From Motilibacter aurantiacus (GTDB lineage Bacteria > Actinomycetota > Actinomycetes > Motilibacterales > Motilibacteraceae): 64,000 bases of DNA. A program made the translations under genes and the position numbers. The stretch covers positions 62,001-126,000 of the forward strand of contig NZ_JAANNO010000003.1 of the NCBI RefSeq assembly GCF_011250645.1. Direction: 5' to 3'. Below the pieces are notes generated by a model that saw nothing but the letters and a program-made list of their open reading frames with translations, had not been told where the DNA came from and did no database searches. Positions within the stretch are counted from its first letter, which is position 1; each line of letters begins with the position of its first letter. Positions 47,244-52,943 of this stretch are shown piece by piece.

Positions 47244-47337
47244 GAGCCTGCGCGACGGCGCCGACAGGCCCGTCGGTGGCACGATGGCAGCAGTCCGGGG
47301 ACGCGTCGGAGCGCCTCGAGATGCGCAAGGAGCCCTC

Positions 47338-48171
47338 ATGTCCGAGCCCAGCCACTTCTCGTCCCTGCCTGCCGGGCGCCGCGTCACGGTGCGCGACGTG
47401 GCGGAGGCCAAGGCCCGTGGCGAGCGCTGGCCCATGCTCACGGCCTACGACGCCCTGACGGCCGCGGTCTTCGAGGAGGCGGGGGTCCCCGTCCTGCTGG
47501 TCGGGGACAGCGCGGGCACGACGGTCTTCGGCCACGCCACCACCGTCCCCGTGACGGTCGACGACCTGCTCCCCCTCGTCGCGGCCGTCGTCCGCGGGAC
47601 GAGCCGGGCCCTGGTGGTCGCGGACCTGCCCTTCGGCAGCTACCAGGCCTCCCCGGCCCAGGCGCTGGAGTCCGCGGCCCGGTTCCTCAAGGAGGGCGGC
47701 GCCCACGCGGTGAAGCTGGAGGGCGGCCGGCGCGTCCTCGGGCAGGTCGAGACGCTCGTCGCCGCCGGGGTGCCCGTCATGGGCCACCTGGGGCTGACGC
47801 CGCAGTCGGTGAACGCGTTCGGGGGCTACCGGGTCCAGGGTCGCGGCGCGGCCGGCGACCAGCTGGTCGAGGACGCGCTCGCGCTCGAGGCCGCGGGAGC
47901 GTTCGCGATCGTGCTCGAGGTCGTCCCCGCCGAGCTCGCCGAGCGGGTGACCAAGGCCCTGGCGATCCCGACCGTGGGCATCGGCGCGGGCCCCGCGACC
48001 GACGCCCAGGTGCTGGTCTGGCAGGACATGGCAGGGCTCACGCCGGGCCGTCCGCCCAAGTTCGTCAAGCGGTACGCCGACGTCCGCGGGGTGCTCACCG
48101 ACGCGGCCCGGCGGTTCGCCGACGACGTCGTCGCCGGCACCTATCCGCCGGAGGAGAACACCTACCACTGA
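47338..48171 (+). CDS. panB: Ketopantoate hydroxymethyltransferase
   Basis: PanB makes ketopantoate from 2-oxoisovalerate and methylene-tetrahydrofolate, the first step to pantothenate and CoA. The 277-aa barrel shows MLTAYDALTAAVFEEAGVPVLLVGDSAGTTVFG, the metal ligands around GDS and the later Asp in VADLPFG, KLEGG, GHLGLTPQSV and VGIGAGPATDAQVLVWQD. ATG 47338 has AAGGAG 6 nt upstream. It is alone on the plus strand between nadE and an amino-acid permease. Confidence 0.96.
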   Translation: MSEPSHFSSLPAGRRVTVRDVAEAKARGERWPMLTAYDALTAAVFEEAGVPVLLVGDSAGTTVFGHATTVPVTVDDLLPLVAAVVRGTSRALVVADLPFGSYQASPAQALESAARFLKEGGAHAVKLEGGRRVLGQVETLVAAGVPVMGHLGLTPQSVNAFGGYRVQGRGAAGDQLVEDALALEAAGAFAIVLEVVPAELAERVTKALAIPTVGIGAGPATDAQVLVWQDMAGLTPGRPPKFVKRYADVRGVLTDAARRFADDVVAGTYPPEENTYH

Positions 48172-50414: not shown

Positions 50415-50727
50415 GAGGCGATCGTCGCACCGGTCGTCCGCAGCGACCGCATCGGCCGGACGCCGCTGCCCTGCTCGGCCGACAGGGCACTCCTGTGGCC
50501 GCTGCAATCTCCGTGTGCATTGAATGGGCGGACCCGACGACCAAAGCCGACTTCAGGTGCCGAGGCCGTCAATCACAACGCCCGCACCTGCAGCTCGTGG
50601 GGAACGGCACGACGTGGGCTTCGGTCATCGATGTTGGCAGACCCAGCGCTGAAGTGCGATCTTTGCGGGTAAAGGTGCGTCCGGGCCCGCCGGGCGGTCC
50701 GCCAATCGCGAAGCTCAGGAGGCACTC
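50415..50727 (+). promoter_or_regulatory. Upstream region of the DUF1508/H1-like gene
   Basis: This 313-bp region contains TTGGCA (50634-50639) and GATCTT (50658-50663) with an 18-bp spacer, a plausible promoter for the next gene, and AGGAGG at 50717-50722 as its ribosome site. GC content is lower than in neighbouring genes. No open frame in it looks coding. Confidence 0.45.
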
Positions 50728-51798
50728 GTGCCAGCAACGTTCGTTCTGAAGAAGGATCGGGCCGGCCGGTTCAAGTTCGAGGTCGTCAACCGCAACAAGG
50801 TCATCGCCTCCTCGACCAACACCTACAGCGTCAAGACCCTCGCGCAGAACGCCATCCGAGCCATCGCCCCTGAGGCGGCGATCGACGACCAGACCCTCGT
50901 CGCGCGCAAGGCGCCCGCGGGCACGACGGCCGGAGCCAGGAAGGCCGCCTCCGCCGTCGCGAAGAAGACAACCGCCACGGCCAAGAAAACCGCGGCCACG
51001 GCGAAGAAGACGGCGGAGACCGCGAAGAAGTCGGTCACCGGCGCCAGGAAGGCGGCGTCGGCCGGCACGGCGAAGAAGGCACCGGCCGCACCGCGGGGCG
51101 GCGCCGCGCGCAGCACGACGCGGGCCACCGGCGTGCGCACCGCGGCGACGAGAGCGGCCAAGGCCGCTCCGGCCAAGGCGACGACGGTCAAGGCGACGAC
51201 GGCCAAGGCGACGACGGCCAAGGCGACTGCCACGAAGACCGTTGCGACCAAGACCGTTGCCACGAAGCCCGCCGCCACGAGAGGCAGGGCCACGAAGACA
51301 ACGACCTCCGGGGCCGGTGCCAAGGCTCCCGCGAAGAGCACTGCGGTGAAGGCCACTGCCACGAAGGCTGCGGCGACGAGGGCCGCTGCGACGAAGGGCA
51401 CTGCGGCGAGAAGCACGGCCGCGAAGAGCACTGCCGCGAAGGGCACTGCGGTGAAGAGCACTGCAGCGAAGACTTCCGCGCGCGGCACCACCGGGCGGGC
51501 GACGCCCGGCCGGACGGCCACTCCGGCTGCGACACCGCGCAAGGCGGCCGCGCGTACGCGGGCCGCGTCCACCGCCACGGCTCGTGGGACCGCATTGACC
51601 GGCCCCGCGAGGCGCACTGCGAAGCAGGCTGCTCCCACTGCCGTGGAGCAGGAGCAGCAGGCCACGGCAGCGCCGGCGCCGGCGCCCGTCGAGACGGCCC
51701 CGGCGGCAGCAGCACCGACGCCTCCGCCCTCCCCCTCGGCACCCGCCCCCACGACGCCCGCCTCGCCCGCACCCGAGCAGGGGCCCGGGGAGTCCTGA
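50728..51798 (+). CDS. DUF1508 (YegP-like) domain fused to a histone H1-like Lys/Ala/Thr tail
   Basis: The 356-aa protein starts at GTG 50728 behind AGGAGG. Residues 3-45 form one DUF1508 module (FVLKKDRAGRFKFEVVNRNKVIASSTNTYSVKTLAQNAI). Residues 60-300 are almost only Lys, Ala, Thr, Arg and Ser in AAK, KKT and KATA-type repeats, like eukaryotic H1 tails and mycobacterial HupB. The last 55 residues are Pro/Ala-rich and acidic. Such tails bind DNA without sequence specificity, so a nucleoid role is likely. The tail uses ACT (Thr) and GCT/GTT codons more than neighbouring genes. Confidence 0.85.
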   Translation: MPATFVLKKDRAGRFKFEVVNRNKVIASSTNTYSVKTLAQNAIRAIAPEAAIDDQTLVARKAPAGTTAGARKAASAVAKKTTATAKKTAATAKKTAETAKKSVTGARKAASAGTAKKAPAAPRGGAARSTTRATGVRTAATRAAKAAPAKATTVKATTAKATTAKATATKTVATKTVATKPAATRGRATKTTTSGAGAKAPAKSTAVKATATKAAATRAAATKGTAARSTAAKSTAAKGTAVKSTAAKTSARGTTGRATPGRTATPAATPRKAAARTRAASTATARGTALTGPARRTAKQAAPTAVEQEQQATAAPAPAPVETAPAAAAPTPPPSPSAPAPTTPASPAPEQGPGES

Positions 51799-51858: not shown

Positions 51859-52035
51859 TCAGTCGTCGTTCCAGCGCTCGTCGTTGTCCCACGCCTCGGT
51901 GCGCTCGGCGGCCGACGCGAGCGCGTTCTCCGCCTCCTGCCGGGTCGCGTACGGCCCCATGCGCTCGGAGCCCGGGCAGATCTGCTCGGTCTCGACGGTC
52001 TTGTGCCGCAGGCAGTACCAGTACTCGTGGCTCAT
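51859..52035 (-). CDS. Small conserved actinobacterial protein, 58 aa
   Basis: The product is MSHEYWYCLRHKTVETEQIC followed by PGSERMGPYATRQEAENALASAAERTEAW and an acidic end. The Cys-x2-His/Cys spacing (YCLRH, QICPG) could bind a metal, and the YATRQEAENAL part resembles SPOR-like repeats. Similar short proteins are found near map in actinobacteria. ATG 52035 has AAGGGG 8 nt upstream. It is divergent from map. Confidence 0.75.
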   Translation of the reverse strand: MSHEYWYCLRHKTVETEQICPGSERMGPYATRQEAENALASAAERTEAWDNDERWNDD

Positions 52036-52088: not shown

Positions 52089-52943
52089 GTGGCAGTGCTC
52101 GTCCCGGGGTCCGTCTCCCCGCAGCGCAACGTTCCCACGCGCATCGCGCGGCCCGAGTACGTCGGCAAGCCCCGCCCCACCCGCTACACCGGGCCACACG
52201 TCATGGACGCCGCGACCGTCGAGCGCATCCGGCGGGCGGGACGGGTCGCGGCGGACGCGATGGAGGAGGCGGCGCGCCACATCCGGCCGGGCATCACGAC
52301 CGACGAGCTGGACCGCATCGGCCACGAGTACCTCGTCGCTCATGACGCGTATCCCTCGACGCTGGGCTACCGCGGCTTCCCGAAGTCGATGTGCACGTCG
52401 ATCAACGAGGTCATCTGCCACGGCATCCCCGACTCGACGGTGCTGCGCGACGGCGACATCGTCAACATCGACGTCACCGCCTACGTCGACGGCGTGCACG
52501 GCGACACGGATGCGACGTACCTCGTGGGCGACGTCGACGAGGAGTCGCGGCTGCTCGTCGAGCGGACCCGGGAAGCCCTGAGCCGCGCGATCAAGGCGGT
52601 ACGCCCGGGCCGGCAGGTCAACGTGATCGGCCGGGTGATCGAGTCGTACGCGAAGCGCTTCGGCTACGGCGTGGTCCGCGACTTCACCGGGCACGGCGTC
52701 GGACCGGTCTTCCACTCCGGCCTCGTCATCCCGCACTACGACGACCCCGCGGCGACCACCGTGATGGAGCCGGGGATGACGTTCACCATCGAGCCGATGC
52801 TCACCCTCGGGACGATCGAGTGGGAGATGTGGGACGACGGCTGGACCGTCGTCACCCGTGACCGGAAGCGCACTGCGCAGTTCGAGCACACCCTCGTGGT
52901 CACCGACACCGGCGCCGACGTCCTGACCCTGCCCAGCGCCTGA
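52089..52943 (+). CDS. map: Methionine aminopeptidase type I with N-terminal extension
   Basis: MetAP removes the initiator methionine from new proteins. The 284-aa product has the N-terminal Pro-rich extension of actinobacterial MetAP-c ([21 protein letters not shown]), thought to contact the ribosome, followed by the pita-bread fold. Metal ligands are seen in [23 protein letters not shown] (two Asp), [11 protein letters not shown] (His), FTIEPMLT (Glu) and QFEHTLVV (Glu). GTG 52089 lacks a ribosome site and follows TAGACT. Confidence 0.95.

Follow-up and report, generated by a model that had tools for sequence, protein, structure and literature searches.

Basic C-terminal tails of the histone H1 type are attached to several bacterial proteins. 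Mycobacterial HupB depends on its tail to bind DNA stably (PMC5676037) and to compact it (PMC5974015), and basic motifs of this kind are also found in Ku and TopA, other actinobacterial DNA-binding proteins (PMC5676037). HbhA is described as losing DNA binding when its C-terminal domain is absent (PMC10665949), and AlgP, in which a predicted helical head is joined to a KPAA tail, as binding DNA and spacing polyphosphate granules (PMC9239181). Neither the DUF1508 domain nor an H1-like tail, as carried by HU, TopA, Ku, HbhA, and AlgP, is new in itself; what is new at the locus described here is a DUF1508 head on such a tail. Pfam lists PF07411 (DUF1508) as a domain of unknown function; the DUF1508/YegP family is widespread and structures have been solved, yet we know of no agreed function for it. 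Within the open-access (PMC) literature, with subscription papers and preprints outside the scope, we found no description of DUF1508 combined with an H1-like tail. Nothing in the open-access literature joined DUF1508 with histone, or Motilibacter with the nucleoid, and for YegP with the nucleoid the only match, judged by title, dealt with promoters.

The gene lies in a window of 64,000 nucleotides, the whole stretch of Motilibacter aurantiacus DNA that was analyzed. An initial annotation made from the letters alone had reported an open reading frame with a DUF1508 head and a basic tail, and this was borne out at exactly 50728-51798 on the + strand by the open reading frame list and an orthologue in Motilibacter deserti. 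The gene encodes 356 amino acids with a calculated pI of approximately 12 and starts with GTG, 5 nt downstream of an AGGAGG (50717-50722, +) that we take, from its consensus, to be the ribosome-binding site. The head, a diverged DUF1508/UPF0339 (YegP) domain with a predicted beta-beta-beta-alpha-beta order, occupies residues 1-57 (50728-50898, +), as seen from Pfam and NCBIfam matches, the predicted structure and a dN/dS of 0.07. The basic tail, defined by Tandem Repeats Finder (TRF), charge counts, and a lag test, covers residues ~64-305 (50917-51642, +), has Lys/Arg at a period of 5 and a net charge of +51, and contains neither cysteine nor aromatic residues. Within it, TRF and codon counts delimit a part built of 15-bp repeats (51178-51474, +) encoding pentapeptides such as ATTAK, TVATK, and STAAK, where most of the ACT codons are found. 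The C-terminal end (residues 306-356; 51643-51795, +), delimited by charge and by alignment with M. deserti, shares 51% identity with its M. deserti counterpart across 41 aligned codons; it had been described as Pro/Ala-rich and acidic, of which the composition stands and the acidity is weak (net −3 over residues 321-356). The closest orthologue, on M. deserti contig NZ_JAANNP010000001.1, is 95% identical over a 56-residue query; G001 of the genome set searched below encodes the same protein as the window.

The window head matches Pfam PF07411 with an E value of 0.0073 and 16.6-16.8 bits, below the curated cut-off of 22, and NCBIfam HVO_2922 with an E value of 4.8e-5 and 23.3 bits, where the cut-off is 90. 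Its assignment to DUF1508 is supported through intermediates. Among the heads of other tailed homologs, six of the eight scanned (eight of nine, L009 being left out) score above the PF07411 cut-off, reaching 78.5 bits, and L057 (19.7 bits) and L013 (16.6 bits) fall below it; in alignment A2 the window head is 34-41% identical to the tailed heads that lie above the cut-off. All 22 rows of alignment A3 match PF07411 at E ≤ 0.01, and an A3 profile search of structures matched five UPF0339 structures. Because these intermediates, together with the superposition on YegP described below, link it to the family, the window head is securely a diverged DUF1508/UPF0339 relative rather than a strict member.

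The predicted model of the head (pLDDT 77.8, pTM 0.59) has the beta-beta-beta-alpha-beta topology and superposes on Escherichia coli YegP (2k8e) with a Z score of 8.9 and an rmsd of 1.8 Å over 59 residues. In a Foldseek search with this model the seven best rows were all UPF0339 proteins, none reaching E ≤ 0.001 (best 7.4e-3). Kinase and reverse transcriptase rows (Foldseek, VIA) were rejected as noise, as they fall below most of the UPF0339 rows, although the rows of 2k7i and 6q2z do not clearly outrank them. The alignment with 2k8e spans both YegP repeats (chain positions 17-129), and on the single-domain protein 3bid the model gives a TM score of 0.62 with an rmsd of 12 Å. We infer from these two overlays that the last strand may be swapped between subunits. 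Among the single-domain relatives in the PDB, 2k7i and 6q2z each have two chains and 3bid has eight. A tandem arrangement in the window protein itself was considered and rejected, since one copy only was found, and the more general expectation that DUF1508 usually occurs in tandem pairs fails in the Actinomycetota: the head profile, which would miss a copy that had diverged too far, detected a second copy in 4 of 75 untailed places (L083, L085, L088, and L095).

To place the window protein among its relatives, the head was searched with a 9-row A2 profile at E ≤ 1e-4. Matches were found in 48 of the 393 genomes of the class and 26 of the 396 of the phylum, five being in both lists, which gives 69 genomes. 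One locus was examined per genome and repeated loci of one place were removed before counting; L010 is without a head. A Lys/Ala-rich tail follows the head in 10 of the 69 genomes (G000, G001, G014, G024, G025, G031, G037, G054, G060, and G748), which span seven families (f1, f11, f21, f22, f28, f31, and f87) and two classes. These tails extend 22 to 293 residues beyond the profile match, the G060 tail being cut by a contig end and the G025 tail stopping two bases before one. Their Lys+Arg density is lowest in Motilibacter, at 18% in both species and 23-44% in the eight others. The tailed heads mostly begin VPA[KRTQ][FY]VL. Within the family to which the window belongs, the head was not detected in G002 or G004, and the match in G003 was weak and had no tail. 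Few genomes represent the orders or the family in which the other tailed genomes are placed: the head was found in 1/1 genomes for the G031 order, 1/1 for the G025 order, 3/3 for the G014 family, and 1/3 for the G024 order, with no new tailed member. In the class of G748 the head is present in one of 66 genomes, and mis-binning is possible for that genome, which is 78% complete. A phage origin was also considered: viral contigs scanned with one query, the head of the relative L005, gave no match, and although such a scan has little power, as only close relatives come within its range, this candidate was set aside.

A tree of the heads was built from 60 columns, with four untailed rows of fewer than 45 matched residues left out. 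The tailed label needs three changes on this tree, as against a mean of 9.6 when labels are shuffled, and none of 500 shuffles was as low. When the ten tailed heads were held as one clade, the likelihood was slightly higher and p-AU was 0.613; a single change of label was obtained in 12% of bootstrap trees, and L057 and L080 form long branches. The tree is compatible with one origin of the tailed heads. Net head charge ranges from +1 to +7 in tailed proteins (n = 10, mean 4.4) versus −10 to +7 in untailed ones (n = 75, mean −0.24; Mann-Whitney p 2e-5), a contrast among related sequences for which an independent-pair test has one supported pair; it is suggestive of the tailed heads being the more basic.

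The basic tail is missing in 59 of the 69 head-bearing genomes, therefore the head's own job works without it. Sixty of the 75 untailed places end within 15 residues past the head, 11 continue for 16-60 residues, and four are longer; in these 15 longer extensions Lys+Arg never exceeds 23%. One reading frame of G690 (L091:1426-2934, +) combines DUF1508 (E 5.8e-13) with HTH_3 (E 9e-12) and an M78/IrrE-like domain (E 2e-17). This protein has no basic tail and likely puts the DUF1508 head on a DNA-binding regulator, a second DNA-linked setting for the domain. Local expansion is also seen: three f3 genomes, G006, G280, and G296, carry six, three, and four untailed DUF1508-like genes, respectively (L056, L058, L060, L061, L063-L070, and L073).

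M. aurantiacus has two HU genes of its own, one tail-less (L112) and one of the HupB type with a 174-residue tail of net charge +38. The initial annotation had spoken of a head not used by HupB, and it was right in this: the window protein gives no match to the HU domain (PF00216), and HupB is a separate gene with its own tail. To compare the vocabularies of the tails, k-mer spectra of DUF1508 tails and HupB tails were matched in nine genomes, or in six families when one genome per family was used, G748 being excluded as its HU has two residues after the domain. With six families, the true tail-HupB pairing outranks every other among the 720 possible for 3-, 4-, and 5-mers; counting the true pairing, 4 of 720 are as good for single residues and 3 of 720 for residue pairs. 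Genome by genome, G000 and G025 place their own HupB at the top whatever the k, and G024 does so for k 2-5 (three of nine genomes); the own HupB is never first in G001 (rank 2-4), G014 (2-5), G031 (2-6), G037 (2-4), G054 (4-9), or G060 (2-5). The two tails of the window genome have 31 5-mers, 13 6-mers, and 7 7-mers in common, where the maxima in 500 composition-preserving shuffles were 25, 12, and 5; the four shared 8-mers lie within the shuffle maximum of six. Shared words include STAAKSTAAK in both window tails and AKKSTAKKSTAKKT in both G025 tails. Neither of the H1-like words of HupB, PAKK and KAAK, occurs in the DUF1508 tail of either Motilibacter species; PAKK is present twice in the HupB tail of the window genome and one to three times in the DUF1508 tails of G014, G024, G025, and G031. 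On average, then, the tail dialect appears to fit the HupB tail of its own genome best, a fit carried by three genomes, measured against HupB tails only, and one that a lineage-wide amino acid habit could explain. As a query in its own genome the tail matched only itself at E ≤ 1e-3 and did not find HupB, so the likeness is one of vocabulary and not of homology alignable at that threshold.

Taken together, we are inclined to see the protein as a sequence-independent nucleoid-associated protein, a dimerizing head with a DNA-gripping tail that would act like HupB through a different head; the balance of the analysis leans modestly this way. The DUF1508 head would fold into a small beta-beta-beta-alpha-beta unit and, judging by the solved single-domain relatives, would most likely pair as a strand-swapped dimer. 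Each subunit would project a tail of ~240 residues, probably mostly disordered, with a positive charge at about every fifth residue, which may lie along the DNA phosphate backbone without sequence preference and bridge or compact DNA as the HupB tail does. The assignment of DNA binding to the tail, and of a dimeric anchor to the head, follows from the analogy with the tails of HupB, HbhA, and AlgP. A single-sequence model of the full-length protein is poor (mean pLDDT 51.7) and gives little confidence for most of the tail; it contains a helix at residues 64-112, with pLDDT of up to 92 in this block, and the opening stretch of the tail, where a 21-bp (7-residue) period was found, may be helical rather than disordered. 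The earlier proposal of a nucleoid-compacting protein with a non-HU head is in this way indirectly supported by the charge lattice, the HupB-like tail, the basic head, and the lack of a hydrophobic segment, and its DNA-binding component is a deduction from them.

A tail of this charge would be expected to bind RNA, ribosomes, or polyphosphate as well as DNA. Upstream in the window is panB (ketopantoate hydroxymethyltransferase; 47320-48171, +, its family named from the homolog L107:2014-3081), and downstream is a map-type M24 methionine aminopeptidase gene (52089-52943, +), identified by family match and synteny. Six of the ten tailed genes keep panB and/or map: panB is upstream, at ~3 kb or nearer, in the window, L103, L106, L107, and L110 (L105 shows only 1.2 kb of upstream sequence), and map is downstream in the window, L103, L105, and L107, with L106 and L110 ending at or in the gene. 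The remaining four tailed genomes, three of f11 and G748, have other neighborhoods; L104, L108, and L109, of one genus in family f11, have enoyl-CoA hydratase and acyl-CoA dehydrogenase genes instead (families read in L104), and L111 has neither set. The synteny in six of ten speaks for inheritance of the gene and against a passing fusion. Between the tailed gene and map is a 58-aa open reading frame (51862-52035, −) without a Pfam or NCBIfam match, 90% identical in M. deserti and 51% identical to a frame beside map in G024 (L105:13795-13953); it was not found at the seven other neighborhood loci searched. Between panB and the tailed gene, three families have frames (L107:3085-3777, L106:15172-15813, and L110:1460-2179) that are mutually 49-55% identical and have no Pfam match.

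Methionine aminopeptidase acts on nascent chains, and the gene adjoins map; the protein could then be an RNA chaperone or ribosome-associated factor, with an RNA-binding head and a tail of non-specific affinity for RNA. Ribosomal proteins do appear among the Foldseek rows below UPF0339, at E values of 0.13-0.41 that are within noise. We consider this reading unlikely, as map is a weak functional link, the tail on average fits the HupB tails of the same family, and the open-access literature on YegP with RNA-binding protein offered nothing relevant by title. Distinctly unlikely in our assessment is a granule tether of the AlgP/PhaF kind, in which the tail would sit on DNA and the head would dock on polyphosphate or another granule, spacing granules along the nucleoid. 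AlgP is described as having the same plan of a small N-terminal domain and a KPAA-rich tail, as binding DNA and as spacing polyphosphate granules (PMC9239181), and a basic tail would bind polyphosphate. However, the AlgP head is predicted in that account to be helical, whereas the head modeled here has the YegP-type beta-alpha fold, no granule gene was seen among the neighbors with identified families, and none of the open-access DUF1508 literature concerned granules by title.

The repeats themselves raise the question of whether the tail has any specific role. A slippage-prone, GC-rich repeat could have been captured behind the DUF1508 domain and drifted as low-complexity sequence, which would account for the 15-bp repeats, the biased codons, the indels, and the 26-aa difference in length between the window protein (356 aa) and that of M. 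deserti (330 aa). TRF found tandem periods of 12, 15, 21, 24, 30, and 45 bp in the tail. The initial annotation had pointed to unusual codon choice as a sign of repeat expansion, and the counts agree: in the tail, ACT encodes 11 of the 57 threonines, versus 1 of 106 across four neighboring genes (p 4e-5), GCT 8 of 84 alanines, versus 9 of 243 (p 0.048), and GTT 2 of 8 valines, versus 3 of 185 (p 0.014). The tail of the M. deserti protein uses ACT for 4 of its 48 Thr residues, and the HupB tail of the window genome for 0 of its 36. Expansion is supported by the 15-bp units with ACT at 5-codon spacing, the length difference, and the ACT-free HupB tail; the ACT pattern and the length difference are what recent repeat growth would leave.

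Drift without a role is improbable. Lys/Arg residues recur in the tail at lags of 5, 10, and 15 positions 24, 22, and 24 times, where shuffled sequences give ~10 and none of 1000 shuffles reached these counts. When the two Motilibacter species are compared, dN/dS rises from 0.07 in the head through 0.22 in the tail to 0.39 in the C-terminal end (0.08 for both map and panB), a pattern that identifies the tail as genuine coding sequence, and the tails are 70% identical. In the protein alignment with M. deserti, 48 of 50 Lys/Arg, 29 of 52 Thr, and 61 of 77 Ala positions of the tail are kept; an alignment from nucleotides only, chosen to keep amino acid scoring from biasing the counts, gives 46 of 50, 30 of 53, and 61 of 78. 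Only 1 of 172 non-basic positions turned basic. Lys/Arg being kept at 92-96% amid this turnover, and Thr at ~56%, selection seems to hold the charge lattice while the filler residues drift, and basic tails in seven families point the same way. Last, export or a place on the cell surface, where the basic tail would bind acidic polymers, for which the precedent is HbhA, described as an adhesion molecule before its nucleoid role (PMC10665949), is highly improbable: export or a membrane anchor was rejected on the absence of any hydrophobic segment from the 356-aa protein (best 19-residue mean 0.54), and in the model the first head strand starts at residue 4, which leaves no room for a signal peptide.

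More tentatively, the nucleoid-associated reading may extend beyond Motilibacter, and we put forward as possible, though rather doubtful, that an old DUF1508 subfamily with a basic head and an H1-like tail, encoded near panB/map, provides several actinobacterial families with a second architectural chromatin protein that is independent of HU and has a tail following the HupB dialect of each lineage, and that in at least one genome, G748, the H1-like tail function may rest on this protein alone. In that genome the one HU found (L115) has two residues after the HU domain and the DUF1508 protein (L080) has a 45-residue Lys-rich tail; it is possible that the tail was handed over from HU to the DUF1508 protein. 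If the subfamily is what we propose, DUF1508/YegP would gain a function as a dimeric nucleic acid-binding scaffold, and a selected H1-like tail on a DUF1508 subfamily gives a testable lead to the function of the domain. It would also suggest that nucleoid architecture in these bacteria draws on more than the known proteins.

Compared with described systems, the window protein resembles HupB/MDP1/HupS in having a short folded N-terminal domain followed by a long, basic, Ala-rich C-terminal tail with repeat words such as STAAKSTAAK in common, and differs from them in its DUF1508-type head, which does not match the HU domain; unlike the HupB tail, its tail is without exact PAKK and KAAK. With the UPF0339/DUF1508 proteins (E. 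coli YegP, SO_3888, NMB1088, Atu0232, and HVO_2922) it shares the sequence family and predicted fold of the head, whereas the UPF0339 structures are chains of 60-130 residues as deposited, without a long tail, two of the five matching twice and therefore being tandem. The heads of HbhA, TopA, and Ku are presumably unrelated to DUF1508, and these actinobacterial proteins are like the window protein in that, as they are described, a basic, Lys-rich C-terminal tail is carried on another head. AlgP and PhaF of Pseudomonas likewise combine a small domain with an H1-like DNA-binding tail; the available account of AlgP, however, gives it a helical head and 25 perfect KPAA repeats, in contrast to the beta-rich head with one helix and the single KPAA found here. 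The DUF1508 head would thus be a new one among the actinobacterial proteins that reuse a DNA-gripping tail.
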